From an uncultured Clostridia bacterium (GTDB lineage Bacteria; Bacillota; Clostridia; Oscillospirales; Ruminococcaceae): DNA of 64,000 bases. Both the position numbers and the translations under genes were made by a program. The notes under the pieces are model-generated. The model saw only the letters and a program-made list of their open reading frames with translations. It made no database searches and was not told the origin of the DNA. The stretch is from positions 1-64,000 of the forward strand of contig CANRNN010000001.1 in NCBI GenBank assembly GCA_947632025.1, given 5' to 3'. Positions 9,702 through 62,739 of the stretch are shown here, one piece after another (the first letter of the stretch is position 1; the number at the start of each line of letters is the position of its first letter).

Positions 9702-9716
9702 GAAATGTATGAAAAT

Positions 9717-9928
9717 ATGATAGAGGTGCGGGGCTGATAAGTAACGCGTCAGCAGGCACCCGGACGTTGAAGTTTTCCTTAAGATGCGTAGATTTCAGGC
9801 GTATCTGCGGTACTTGCGGACGGGGCGGCTTTTCGGGAAGCGCGGCGTGAAAGGCAGTACCGCCGAGGAGCGCGTATTCCGAGGTGCGTGTTATCCGGTT
9901 GTGCGTCGAACAGGCGTATGACTGTCAT
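9717..9928 (+). ncRNA. Lysine riboswitch (L-box)
   Basis: ATGATAGAGGTGCGG..AAGTAA, AAAGGCAGTACCGCCGAGGAG and terminal ACTGTCAT match L-box core segments; P1 ATGATAG/CTGTCAT pairs; located directly upstream of asd-dapA-dapB. Confidence 0.88.
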
Positions 9929-9979
9929 CGACTTGCTTGATGGAGCGCTATCGCAATATTTAGCCGCACATAAAGCCTG

Positions 9980-10042: not shown

Positions 10043-11125
10043 ATGAAACAACAGTACAAGGTCGGAATCATTGGAGCTACGGGAATGGTAGGACAGCGTT
10101 TCGCGACGCTGCTTGAAAATCACCCGTGGTTCAAGGTGACTGCTCTCGCGGCATCACCGCGCTCGGCGGGGAAAACTTACAAGGAGGCAGTGGGCGACAG
10201 GTGGTATATGGATACCCCTATGCCCGCGAATATGGCGGATATCGTCGTGATGGACGCGTCCGCTGATGTTGAGAAGATCGCGTCTATGGTGGACTTCGTG
10301 TTCTGCGCGGTTGATATGAAAAAGGACGAAATTAAGGCTCTTGAGGAAAAATATGCTAAGGCTGAATGCCCTGTGATGTCAAACAACTCCGCTCATCGTT
10401 TTACCCCCGACGTTCCTATGATAATTCCGGAGGTGAACGCGGATCACGCAGAAATAATCAACGCACAGAGAAAACGTCTGGAAACAAAACGCGGATTTAT
10501 TTCAGTAAAGAGCAACTGCTCGATACAAAGCTATGTTCCCGCTCTCTCTCCGCTGAGAAAATTCGGTATAACCGAAATACTTGCGTGTACTTATCAGGCA
10601 ATTTCGGGAGCAGGCAAAACGTTTGAAACTTGGCCCGAAATGGTCGACAACCTTATCCCGTATATCGGCGGTGAGGAGGAAAAGTCCGAGCAGGAGCCGC
10701 TGAAGGTATGGGGTCATATTGAGGGTGACAAGATAGTCAAAGTCGAAAAGCCGTCCATTACAACTCAGTGCCTGCGCGTGCCTGTTTCAAATGGTCACTT
10801 TGCGGCGGTATTCGTAAGATTCGAGAACAAGCCCTCAATCGAAGAGATCAAGAAGATATGGGCAGAGTATTCGGCAGAGCCGCAGGAGCTGAAGCTCCCG
10901 TCTGCACCGAAACAGTTCCTCAACTATTTTGAAGAGGATAATTTCCCTCAGGCTAAACTCCACAGAAATCTTGAGGGAGGTATGGCTATCTCTATCGGAC
11001 GTCTTCGTCCCGATACGCAGTATGATTACAAGTTCGTCTGCCTTTCGCACAATACTCTGCGCGGCGCGGCGGGCGGCGCGGTCGAAATGGCGGAGCTTCT
11101 CGCGGCAAAGGGTTATCTGGACTGA
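10043..11125 (+). CDS. asd: Aspartate-semialdehyde dehydrogenase
   Basis: KVGIIGATGMVGQRFATLL, SNCSIQSYVPALSPL, AISGAGKTFETWP. Confidence 0.95.
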   Translation: MKQQYKVGIIGATGMVGQRFATLLENHPWFKVTALAASPRSAGKTYKEAVGDRWYMDTPMPANMADIVVMDASADVEKIASMVDFVFCAVDMKKDEIKALEEKYAKAECPVMSNNSAHRFTPDVPMIIPEVNADHAEIINAQRKRLETKRGFISVKSNCSIQSYVPALSPLRKFGITEILACTYQAISGAGKTFETWPEMVDNLIPYIGGEEEKSEQEPLKVWGHIEGDKIVKVEKPSITTQCLRVPVSNGHFAAVFVRFENKPSIEEIKKIWAEYSAEPQELKLPSAPKQFLNYFEEDNFPQAKLHRNLEGGMAISIGRLRPDTQYDYKFVCLSHNTLRGAAGGAVEMAELLAAKGYLD

Positions 11126-54374: not shown

Positions 54375-55331
54375 ATGAAGCTCGCAAAACAAATTCTTGC
54401 TATCGTGCTTACGGCGGCAGTGTTCGCGTCGTTTGATATTGCGGTTTATAACGTGGTCACAAAACGCTATATGAACCACAATTCCGAAGCTATGCAGGCA
54501 AAATCGGTGGAGCTTTGCAAGTATCTTCCGTTTGATGAAAATTCGGAAATAGTGAAAATAAATTCATCGTTCAAGCTGAATGAGAAACTGCCTGTTATAG
54601 ACGGCGCTGCGGCTCTTTATCCCGTGTTTTCGGCATTTGTAAACGCGGTTTATCCTAAGGAGAGCGTTCATTTTGACGGGGAGAATTTCACGTCCGACAG
54701 TGCGCTGCATTACACCAACACACGAGGCTCTTACAAGGCGATTGTTGACGGCGACGCGGATTTGATTTTTTGTGCGAAGCCGTCCGAGGAACAGTTAGCT
54801 TACGCGAAAGAAAAGGGCGTGGAGTTGGAACTTATCCCGATAGGACGCGAGGCGTTCGTTTTTATCGTGAATGCTGAAAATCCCGTTAATTCTCTAACTG
54901 AGGAACAGGTGAGAGATATTTATTCGGGGAAAATTCTAAACTGGTCGGAAGTCGGTGGAAAAAACCGCCTTATAAACGCGCTCGAAAGAAACGAGGGTAG
55001 CGGTTCGCAGACGCAGATGCTGTCGTTTATGGGCGGCAGAGAGATAAAACGTAATATTTTTGGCGCTTTAACAGGGAGTGCAATAGGATTTTCGTTCAGA
55101 TATTACGTTGAGGGGATAGTCGGAAATTCAGGCGTTAAAATACTGTCGATAAACGGCGTTTACCCCGATAAAGAACATATAGCAAACGGAGAATATCCGC
55201 TTTCGTCAAATTTTTACGCAGTTTGCCGAAAAAATGACGATAACGAAAACCTGCGCGCTTTTATTGATTGGATCATTTCAGAAGAAGGGCAGAAAATAAT
55301 TGAACAAAGTGAGTATGTTCCGCTAAAATGA
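54375..55331 (+). CDS. PstS-like phosphate-type substrate-binding protein
   Basis: LPVIDGAAALYPVFSAFVNAVYP, DADLIFCAKPSEEQ, LTEEQVRDIYSGKILNWSEVGGKN, ERNEGSGSQTQM. Confidence 0.8.
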   Translation: MKLAKQILAIVLTAAVFASFDIAVYNVVTKRYMNHNSEAMQAKSVELCKYLPFDENSEIVKINSSFKLNEKLPVIDGAAALYPVFSAFVNAVYPKESVHFDGENFTSDSALHYTNTRGSYKAIVDGDADLIFCAKPSEEQLAYAKEKGVELELIPIGREAFVFIVNAENPVNSLTEEQVRDIYSGKILNWSEVGGKNRLINALERNEGSGSQTQMLSFMGGREIKRNIFGALTGSAIGFSFRYYVEGIVGNSGVKILSINGVYPDKEHIANGEYPLSSNFYAVCRKNDDNENLRAFIDWIISEEGQKIIEQSEYVPLK

Positions 55332-59253: not shown

Positions 59254-60369
59254 ATGGAATTTAATGATTATAACAGCATCCAATTGTATGATGTATTCAC
59301 AAAATTTGCCAAAGGCAGAAAGTCGCTCACATTACTGATCGACAATGAACGGAATATTTTGTTTTCAAACAACAGAAGAATCATCAAAGAAAACAGGAAA
59401 CTTGATTTAATCGTCAACGAAAATGTTTCTATTAAATTTGAAGATGGACAGATATTCAAAGCAAAGATAAATTCAAAGTTCTACAATTGCAGGGTATACC
59501 GTTTAACCAAAAATTTTCTTTATTGTGAGCTTTTCAACAGTAATGACATAATAAAGCTCTCAAACGGTATGGAGCTGAGAGATGGATTGAACACCGAAAT
59601 AGGTATTATCAATGAAAAGATAAAAAATATTTTGAGAATCTGCAAATCTTCCCTGCATAATGTAAAATTCACAGATAGAAACAGAGTAAATGCCGGCACG
59701 ATCGAAATAATTCATGATATGCTCTCTGATATCGCTGTTTCCTGTGATATTCTTTCTCAATTCTTAAATGACAATACGGTTGAAAATCCTATTATTGTTG
59801 ATCTGAATGAAACCCTAAAGACTTTTTCTATTCTTTGCAATGAATCACTTTGTAATACGAATAAACATATTGAATATATTAAAAACATTGAAAATGGCGA
59901 ATTATTTTATACAACATTGAGATTTGAAAATTTTATATTCATAATAATGAATGCCATTCACAGTGCGCTTTTTCTTTCCGAAACTGAAGTTCCCATTAAT
60001 ATCTTTTTGAGAAAAGAAATAATTGAAGAAAAACAAGTTAATGTTATTGAAATAGATTTTGAAACTTTATACAATTTTTCCGAGGAAGAGCTTGAAAACA
60101 ACACGATTTTTTCTTCGGTCATGGGATTGATAAGAAGTGAAATATCCAAAAAATATCTCACACAGTGCGGCGGCAGTCTTAATATGGAATACAACAAATT
60201 TTGTTCAAAAGCAAAAATCAGGATAATATTTCAGGAATCTGTTATAAACGCCGAAAGGGATAGTAAATATATTTTCAATTGCCCGTCTTATTTTGTTGAC
60301 GAGCTGCATATGCTTTATCCCTTAGAGCTTGCACTTATGGAAATAAAAAACGAAAACGGAAAAAAATAA
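59254..60369 (+). CDS. Putative histidine-kinase-like protein, divergent
   Basis: IIHDMLSDIAVSCDILSQFLND recalls a DHp helix; RFENFIFIIMNAIHSALFLS recalls an N-box; gene appears AT-richer than its neighbours. Confidence 0.4.
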   Translation: MEFNDYNSIQLYDVFTKFAKGRKSLTLLIDNERNILFSNNRRIIKENRKLDLIVNENVSIKFEDGQIFKAKINSKFYNCRVYRLTKNFLYCELFNSNDIIKLSNGMELRDGLNTEIGIINEKIKNILRICKSSLHNVKFTDRNRVNAGTIEIIHDMLSDIAVSCDILSQFLNDNTVENPIIVDLNETLKTFSILCNESLCNTNKHIEYIKNIENGELFYTTLRFENFIFIIMNAIHSALFLSETEVPINIFLRKEIIEEKQVNVIEIDFETLYNFSEEELENNTIFSSVMGLIRSEISKKYLTQCGGSLNMEYNKFCSKAKIRIIFQESVINAERDSKYIFNCPSYFVDELHMLYPLELALMEIKNENGKK

Positions 60370-60435
60370 AATCGCTCTTTACATAACGTTCAACAGGTTT
60401 TCACATTTCTATCATAGTTTTGGTTTATAATTAAA

Positions 60436-60527
60436 TTGTCGGAGAGATCCGACAAGCAATGTTCATAGTTTCCTCTTGCGAATTGGGCGTTCTTTATCAG
60501 AATCTCGTAAAGAACGCCGTTTTTTTA
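60436..60527 (+). ncRNA. Candidate small RNA or structured leader
   Basis: TATAAT at 60426-60431, then TTGTCGGA-GAGA-TCCGACAA hairpin, GCAA..TTTCCTC..TTGC segment and a strong terminator; no ORF. Confidence 0.45.
60486..60527 (+). terminator. Rho-independent terminator
   Basis: GGCGTTCTTTA tcagaatctcg TAAAGAACGCC GTTTTTTT, perfect 11-bp stem. Confidence 0.85.
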
Positions 60528-60578
60528 TCTGTTGTACAATGTAATAAAATTCCGTAATTTTTTGCATCGGAGGTTTTT

Positions 60579-61253
60579 ATGTATAGGATTCTGGTTGTAG
60601 ATGACGAAGAAAATATCCGCGAGGTACTAAAAGAATACGCGGAATTCGAGGGTCATACTGTCGACGAGGCAGCGGACGGTATGCAGGCTATCGAAATGGT
60701 AAAAAAGAACGATTATGACATAATAATTATGGACGTTATGATGCCAAGACTTGACGGATATTCCGCTTGCAAGGAAATCCGCAAGATAAAGCAGATTCCG
60801 GTGCTTATGCTTTCTGCAAGAGGAGAGGAGTACGATAAGCTGTTCGGCTTTGAACTCGGTATCGACGATTATGTTGTAAAGCCGTTCTCTCCGAAAGAGG
60901 TAATGGCAAGAATAAACGCGATAGTAAAGCGCAACGCTCCGCCTGTCGCAGCAACGGTTTCCGAAGTCGAAAAATTCGAGGGTCTGGAGGTAAATTTTAC
61001 ATCACGCGATGTATTTATCGACGGCGAGAAGGTAAATCTTACGCCGAAAGAATACGACCTGCTGTTTTTCTTGGTGAGAAACAAGAACATAGCCCTTACA
61101 AGAAACAAGCTTCTGGAAGAAGTATGGGGGTATGACTTCTTCGGCGACGACAGAACGATTGATACTCATATAAAAATGCTTCGCAATAATTTAGGAAAAT
61201 ACCGTAAATTTATTGTGACACTTCGCGGATTGGGATATAAGTTCGAGGCTTGA
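60579..61253 (+). CDS. OmpR/PhoB family response regulator
   Basis: ILVVDDEENIREVLKEYAEFEGH, DIIIMDVMMPRLDGYSACKEIR, winged-helix LTPKEYDLLFFLVRNKN...DDRTIDTHIKMLRNNLG. Confidence 0.95.
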   Translation: MYRILVVDDEENIREVLKEYAEFEGHTVDEAADGMQAIEMVKKNDYDIIIMDVMMPRLDGYSACKEIRKIKQIPVLMLSARGEEYDKLFGFELGIDDYVVKPFSPKEVMARINAIVKRNAPPVAATVSEVEKFEGLEVNFTSRDVFIDGEKVNLTPKEYDLLFFLVRNKNIALTRNKLLEEVWGYDFFGDDRTIDTHIKMLRNNLGKYRKFIVTLRGLGYKFEA

Positions 61254-61254
61254 T

Positions 61255-62739
61255 ATGAATTTCTTTAGGAGTATTAAGTTCAGAGTCTGGGCGCTGTTTG
61301 AAATAGTCGTAATTGTATTGCTGGCGTTTACTTATATCTTCCTTATAGCGCTTTTTCCTCATTTTTATGAGTGGATGAAAACTTACGAGATAAGCGAAGC
61401 CCTCGTCGATATACGCGAAAACTGGGAAAGTGAAAATATAGGCAGCGTTATCAACGAGCAAGCAATAAGGAAAAAAATGTATGTGGAGATTTATTTTCCT
61501 AATACAGGTTATTCCTATTATGCAAATAAGCTCGGCGGCTCCCTTTCTTTGAACGGTCTGGGAAAAACTCCTATTACAAAGGAAGTAAGAGAATCGGAAA
61601 GGGGACTTATAAAGCGTCGTTTCCGCGACGAAATGGAGGATAATTCCGTACTTCTGGTCGGAAGTTATATCGGCGAGGACAAAAACGATCCGGAAGCGTA
61701 TATTTTCATATGCAACTACCTTGAACCTATCGGAACGACCGTACAGATATTCACACGGCAGTTTATGTTTGTAGGTGTCGTGATGATGGTATTTACAGTG
61801 TTTTTGTCAATGCTCTTTTCTTACGAGATTTCCGCTCCTATAATTAGAATAAACAATTCCGCAAAGGAGCTGCCGCAGGGGAAATTCAACGTAAAGATCG
61901 CAAAGCGTGATTACGGTGAGATAAAACAACTTGCGGGGACGCTTACTTCCGCTTCAAAGGAAATAGCGAAATCGGACGATCTGCGGCGCGAATTGATGTC
62001 GAATATTTCTCATGACCTCCGAACTCCGCTTACTATGATAAAGGCTTACGCCGAAATGATACGCGATATATCGGGCGAAAATCCCGAAAAGCGTGATCGC
62101 CATCTGAAAGTCATAATCGACGAAACCGACAGGCTTTCTTCGCTTGTGAATGATATTCTTGACCTTTCAAAGCTTCAGGCAGGAGTTACCGAAATGCATC
62201 CGGAAACATTCAACTTCTCGGTAAGGCTTTCGGGCGTGATTTCCAGATTCGATATTCTTAAGGAAAACGATGGGATCATAATCAACCTTGAAGCGGATAA
62301 GGATATTATTATCACGGCGGATATAACAAAGCTCGAACAGGTTGTCTATAATCTTATAAACAACGCCGTTATATATGCAGGCGACGACAATACGGTAATT
62401 GTACGCCTGTTCCGCAAGGGCGACGGAAATGTACGCTTTGAGGTCATCGACCACGGAGAGGGTATCTCCGCAGAAAATCTTCCGTATATCTGGGACAGAT
62501 ACTATAAAGTAAGCGAGCGCAACAAAACGCACAAGCGGGCTAAGATGGGCAGCGGAATAGGCTTGTCTATCGTAAAGAGTGTCCTTGAAGGTCATAATTT
62601 TCCATACGGAGCGGACAGCCGCGAGGGAGAAGGAAGCACATTCTGGTTTGAAGCTCCCGAATATCTTGAGGTCAAGACAGAAGCAAAACCCGTTCACGGA
62701 AAGCGTTCGGTTTCCGAAAAAAAGCACGAAACAAAATAA
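61255..62739 (+). CDS. Sensor histidine kinase
   Basis: Two TM segments, HAMP, SNISHDLRTPLTMIKAYAEMIRD, YNLINNAVIYAG, GSGIGLSIVKSVLEGH. Confidence 0.95.
   Translation: MNFFRSIKFRVWALFEIVVIVLLAFTYIFLIALFPHFYEWMKTYEISEALVDIRENWESENIGSVINEQAIRKKMYVEIYFPNTGYSYYANKLGGSLSLNGLGKTPITKEVRESERGLIKRRFRDEMEDNSVLLVGSYIGEDKNDPEAYIFICNYLEPIGTTVQIFTRQFMFVGVVMMVFTVFLSMLFSYEISAPIIRINNSAKELPQGKFNVKIAKRDYGEIKQLAGTLTSASKEIAKSDDLRRELMSNISHDLRTPLTMIKAYAEMIRDISGENPEKRDRHLKVIIDETDRLSSLVNDILDLSKLQAGVTEMHPETFNFSVRLSGVISRFDILKENDGIIINLEADKDIIITADITKLEQVVYNLINNAVIYAGDDNTVIVRLFRKGDGNVRFEVIDHGEGISAENLPYIWDRYYKVSERNKTHKRAKMGSGIGLSIVKSVLEGHNFPYGADSREGEGSTFWFEAPEYLEVKTEAKPVHGKRSVSEKKHETK

Follow-up and report, generated by a model that had tools for sequence, protein, structure and literature searches.

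A candidate anti-start small RNA in the leader of a response regulator–kinase operon of uncultured Clostridia

In the genome of an uncultured Clostridia bacterium, a gut member of the Oscillospiraceae, a 371-aa gene ends at 60369 and an OmpR-type response regulator (RR) gene begins at 60579. The intergenic DNA carries, at 60388–60526 of the forward strand, a promoter followed by a 5′ hairpin, the exposed core GCAAUGUUCAUAGUUUCCUC and an intrinsic terminator. Positions are those of the window, the whole 64 000-nucleotide stretch of DNA that was analysed. We think it probable, with moderate confidence, that an envelope-stress RR drives from this leader a small RNA (sRNA) directed against translation starts, by a logic like that of CiaR with the csRNAs and of LisRK with LhrC. 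This reading is built on sequence comparison, which gives the conservation of the promoter and operator, the sharing of the operator with htrA and an ABC-transporter operon, the leader position, the covariation of the hairpin and the conservation of the core. Little is known about regulatory sRNAs of uncultured gut Oscillospiraceae, and a literature search on them returned nothing direct; for the present element, a regulator, a regulon and a mechanism can all be predicted, which makes it a concrete candidate.

Architecture of the locus

The features of the locus are as follows.

59254–60369, + strand: fast-evolving 371-aa protein, no Pfam match at E 0.001
60388–60415, + strand: predicted RR operator with three direct half-sites, GTTCAA (60388–60393), TTTCAC (60399–60404) and TATCAT (60410–60415); from sequence and genus conservation
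60426–60431, + strand: −10 box TATAAT; from sequence and the constant distance to TCATA (9 nt) throughout the genus
60436–60455, + strand: 5′ hairpin TTGTCGGA-GAGA-TCCGACAA, 8 bp, arms 60436–60443 and 60448–60455; from sequence, covariation and predicted folds
60456–60475, + strand: core GCAATGTTCATAGTTTCCTC / GCAAUGUUCAUAGUUUCCUC, mostly unpaired, predicted anti-Shine–Dalgarno (anti-SD) and anti-AUG seed; from sequence conservation
60486–60526, + strand: intrinsic terminator GGCGTTCTTT...AAAGAACGCC, hairpin 60486–60518, then G, then T7 at 60520–60526; from sequence and near-invariance
60579–61253, + strand: OmpR/PhoB-type RR, 224 aa, Pfam Response_reg and Trans_reg_C, ribosome-binding site GGAGG at 60569–60573
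61255–62739, + strand: sensor histidine kinase, 494 aa, HisKA and HATPase_c

The TATAAT box, the 8-bp GAGA hairpin and the terminator with T7 are all present as the first-pass annotation described them. The small-RNA architecture that it proposed, a hairpin followed by a pyrimidine-rich seed and a terminator, also holds up at the level of sequence, with the seed among the most conserved parts. Transcription would start at about 60437–60439, giving a predicted RNA of ~90 nt with two stem-loops. Its fold has an energy of −30.5 kcal/mol (z = −3.95), and none of 200 shuffled sequences folds as well. A search with the Rfam 15 covariance models, which had been suggested as a check, returned nothing at gathering score for the RNA and nothing credible below it, the best weak match reaching 17.6 bits where the cut-off is 60. 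The only match in the window lies elsewhere, a lysine riboswitch at 9713–9958 (+ strand, 85.6 bits) upstream of an ORF at 10043. The window also encodes a lone PstS-family-like protein at 54375–55331 (+ strand), whose score against TIGR02136 is 110.9 bits where the cut-off is 206.6.

Orthologs of the RR, 82–91% identical, are found in 39 of the 43 genomes of the genus, and the kinase gene adjoins the RR gene in all homologous loci checked. The RR scores below all NCBIfam cut-offs shown, PhoB included. Proteins of ~360 aa occupy the place of the 371-aa protein in 11 genomes looked at, and genus-wide this place is between pepF and the RR gene. Relatives of the protein seem to have a degenerate HATPase-like C-terminus (GIPIIKRFA), and one of them scores 20.8 bits with HATPase_c, which is short of the cut-off. 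By its position, the 371-aa protein may serve this two-component system as an accessory sensor.

Promoter and predicted operator

TTCACA had been taken for a poor −35 element 5′ of the TATAAT box. It is instead part of the three half-sites, which are spaced 11 bp apart, replace the −35 element and end 10 bp before TATAAT. The pattern across the genus is NTTCAN-N5-TTTCAC-N5-TNTCAT-N10-TATAAT, and with up to three mismatches it is found before the RR gene in 36 genomes of the genus. It had been suggested that the poor −35 might call for an activator or an alternative sigma factor, and the repeats indeed resemble an activator-type operator in its place. Their position and geometry suggest that the RR itself would bind them. 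A reading of the 11-bp repeats as a PhoP/Pho box was rejected, since contig 9 carries a separate pst-phoU-RR-kinase locus and the RR does not reach the PhoB cut-offs.

The operator with its −10 box (up to three mismatches) occurs at one or two additional places in most genomes of the genus, and a reversed control pattern hardly ever turns up in the same search. Operator-like repeats and a −10 box lie at normal spacing directly 5′ of htrA in the seven genomes opened for it, and the same operator lies, again at normal spacing, directly before an ABC-transporter operon in the seven opened for that operon. The domains of both were tested in this genome: the htrA product has Trypsin_2 and PDZ, and the operon consists of an ATPase, an ABC-2 permease, ABC_transp_aux and DUF4340.

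L232 1261–6007, G000 contig 7, − strand: ABC operon, gliding-type arrangement, operator shared with htrA and the RR gene

Since the operator also precedes htrA and the ABC operon, the RR would be of the envelope- or secretion-stress type, and these two transcription units are probably its own regulon. A further repeat-like site, C1:275094, was set aside because it appears to be the palindromic operator of a MarR-like gene.

Sixteen genomes have the RR gene and no exact core, and the promoter is found before the RR gene wherever the contig extends far enough. Because these genomes keep the promoter immediately ahead of the RR gene, the promoter belongs to the RR-kinase operon itself, and the predicted RNA is the operon's terminated 5′ leader. 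A GGCGTTC..GAACGCC terminator follows the promoter in several of them and is not apparent in five, where the promoter would thus feed the RR gene directly. Of the 23 loci with the sRNA, 20 have a gap of 26–68 nt from terminator to RR gene, the remaining three having 119, 141 and 192 nt, and no consistent second promoter was found in this gap among the 23 homologs. From the short gap and the lack of a consistent second promoter we infer that RR mRNA usually arises by readthrough.

Such an arrangement would also suit a leader that acts only in cis, in which the hairpin, core and terminator set the amount of RR-kinase mRNA and the released RNA has no targets. Termination could then be fixed or regulated, or the core could mask the ribosome-binding site of the RR gene. 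The RNA does lie behind the RR promoter and ahead of the RR gene, promoter and terminator occur without the core in several genomes, most homologs leave scant room for a second promoter after the terminator, and the terminator sequence is unusually conserved. However, the five genomes without an apparent terminator still carry the RR gene, and no conserved alternative antiterminator pairing was found; RNAalifold predicts the same helices plus a different weak loop in the core, without covariation. A simple attenuator would also have no need of a 20-nt, near-invariant anti-SD/anti-AUG core that is missing as a unit in other species. We therefore regard regulation in cis alone as unlikely, though well short of negligible, and retain the anti-start sRNA as the preferred reading.

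Distribution and conservation

A DNA similarity search of 61 genomes found the region in 15, which all belong to one genus. The core, with no or one mismatch, occurs once per genome in 23 of the 43 genomes of the genus, and in each of them it immediately precedes the same RR gene; a one-mismatch match in G066 was discarded, as it lies at an unrelated place. The DNA similarity of the region and the recurrence of the core beside the same RR gene across the genus indicate that the element is more than a chance arrangement. In a scan of 84,980 species, other matches to the core are at chance level and often merely the complement of a gene start; in that collection the genus is represented by metagenome assemblies labelled Oscillospiraceae or uncultured Clostridia. 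A covariance model run against 295 genomes of the order gave four matches outside the genus, all unrelated terminators; this model is insensitive, since it also missed G010, which belongs to the genus and carries the RNA. Because the assemblies of many relatives are incomplete metagenome assemblies, the presence of the element in a genome counts for more than its absence. In G003 (L138), a diverged core, GGCATTATTCATGATTTCTTCC, precedes a GGCGTT terminator 5′ of the RR gene, and this is a possible intermediate with another seed.

Three parts of the RNA are conserved in different ways. First, the 5′ stem changes on both sides at four of its eight pairs among the ten closest sequences, with 97% of cells paired; shifting all structure partners in the same ten sequences lowers the pairing to 39–52%. 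A second, divergent clade has a different stem, with changes on both sides at four of 11 pairs. A hairpin is predicted at the 5′ position in 23 of 23 homologs (mean z of −3.2) despite widely differing sequences, although in G006, G005, G007 and G010 it is barely stronger than shuffled sequence. The loop is GAGA, GAAA, GCAA, GTAA or 5 nt long across the homologs; the GNRA cap noted at first is thus right for the GAGA loop here and extends to close relatives only. Second, the core is invariant at almost every base, and pairing within it is poorly supported. The GCAA...UUGC mini-stem that had been drawn around the seed is weak, with 85% of cells paired and no change on both sides. Lastly, the terminator stem keeps nine of nine pairs with almost invariant sequence. 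Covariation had been proposed as a check for both stems; the first shows compensatory changes in either clade, and the terminator is kept by its near-invariant sequence. Thus, the alignments indicate that the 5′ hairpin is maintained by compensatory changes, and the core and terminator by sequence. In G010, G007, G002 and G005 (L051, L053, L054 and L047), the terminator loop is larger by ~50–65 nt and contains a second long hairpin; this clade keeps the outer GGGCG..CGCCC stem.

The position of the terminator 3′ of the 371-aa gene raises the question of whether it simply ends that gene, with the hairpin arising by chance. However, a conserved promoter separates the gene stop from the RNA, the 371-aa gene is strongly variable and the RNA is not, and the hairpin covaries. 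We find this explanation scarcely credible.

The core as a predicted anti-start seed

The reverse complement of the core reads GAGGAAACU-AUG-AACAUUGC (as DNA, GAGGAAACT-ATG-AACATTGC), that is, an SD sequence, 5 nt and a start codon in register. This SD-spacer-ATG arrangement appears in 2% of shuffled cores. Given this rare order, we read the RNA as an anti-translation-start sRNA. The first-pass annotation had suggested an anti-SD seed that could be exposed; the core is indeed mostly unpaired, but the description was incomplete, for the core is also complementary to AUG, with SD and AUG in register.

A real translation start on the minus strand would have the same appearance. The reverse complement of the core has a good SD (GAGG) before ATG AAC ATT GCN... 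and encodes Met-Asn-Ile-Ala in the homologs. However, the frame is not conserved past these four codons, the resulting peptides range from ~11 codons upward, and the length differences in stem 1 are not divisible by three. The promoter, the terminator and the covarying hairpin all indicate the + strand, and we consider a minus-strand ORF very improbable.

To find partners of the seed, we compared the core with mRNAs. In its own genome, at up to three mismatches, there is no fully complementary mRNA site, and the matches with two or three mismatches lie inside genes. Two candidates were rejected: htrA, whose duplex energy is unremarkable (rank 30 of 85 starts), and the start of a MacB-like ABC exporter (contig 11, 20527), which gives ~−22 kcal/mol here and in two near relatives and not in most others. 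A start-site pattern searched genus-wide brought out no prominent conserved target among the matches listed. For the cis-acting alternative, the anti-SD part of the core could touch the ribosome-binding site of the RR gene itself, and this pairing is unremarkable (−17.1 kcal/mol, rank 28 of 85). The seed may fit several loosely matching starts, as proposed for the csRNAs; alternatively, the RNA may act mainly in cis.

Proposed mechanism

Beyond the earlier annotation, the comparison points to a position in the RR-kinase leader, an operator common to htrA and the ABC exporter, and a seed that matches SD and AUG together. From these features we infer that the RNA is transcribed, that the RR binds its promoter, that the RNA acts in trans and what kind of mRNA it would affect. 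The active two-component system would place the RR on the 11-bp direct repeats, and the promoter would fire, as at htrA and the ABC operon. Most transcripts would end at the terminator, yielding a ~90-nt sRNA with a 5′ hairpin, an exposed anti-SD/anti-AUG core and a terminator hairpin, and the remaining transcripts would read through into the RR and kinase genes, which amounts to autoregulation. The sRNA would then pair with some mRNAs at their ribosome-binding sites and start codons, blocking translation. As a tentative extension, plausible yet held with clearly less conviction, the operon may be one whose transcription has to pass through its own sRNA: whenever the RR promoter fires, the product would be either anti-start sRNA or RR-kinase mRNA, the terminator would fix or sense the ratio of repressor to activator, and the sRNA branch would be gained or lost between species as the promoter stays.

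Comparison with known systems

The csRNAs of Streptococcus are defined by a CiaR repeat, NTTAAG-N5-TTTAAG, located 10 bp before the −10 box and by a terminator within 250 bp; they are 51–202 nt long, with two stem-loops in many members, and have an unpaired anti-SD/anti-AUG region (PMC3091779, PMC4507080). The RNA described here shares an OmpR-type RR, direct repeats spaced by 11 bp of which the last half-site ends 10 bp before the −10 box, a regulon that is predicted from the shared operator to include htrA, and a 5′ and a terminator stem-loop on either side of an unpaired stretch with complementarity to SD and AUG. Its terminator, its size and its stem-loops lie within the csRNA description, and the core contains a CAU that would pair with a start codon. 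In contrast, the half-site here is TTCA-based and departs from the CiaR repeat, one copy was found per genome against several csRNAs, and the RNA lies in the leader of the RR operon itself, in Clostridia and not in Streptococcus, with no match in Rfam. Thus, it resembles the csRNAs without being one of them: it would work like a csRNA, as far as can be told from its sequence, and is not classed as one.

Other systems share single aspects. LhrC sRNAs of Listeria have five copies, and their expression depends on LisRK (PMC4132741). Here too, an sRNA is predicted to be tied to an envelope-stress two-component system in a Gram-positive bacterium, as a single leader-encoded copy compared with the five of LhrC. 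The CssRS secretion-stress two-component system controls HtrA-type proteases (PMC6527527, PMC12802291). A link between a two-component system and an HtrA-type protease is likewise predicted here, from the operator. We know of no sRNA in the CssRS system. The pairing of an HtrA-controlling RR with an anti-start sRNA, known in Streptococcus, may have arisen separately in Clostridia and, if so, would be a recurrent design in Gram-positive envelope stress. Lastly, a study of 5′-UTR-derived RNAs in E. coli describes premature termination in leaders, which leaves RNA ends inside 5′ UTRs, and documents regulation (PMC7815308). Premature leader termination is also predicted for the present RNA, which differs from the E. 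coli cases covered there in its genes and phylum and in that the leader belongs to the presumed driving regulator.
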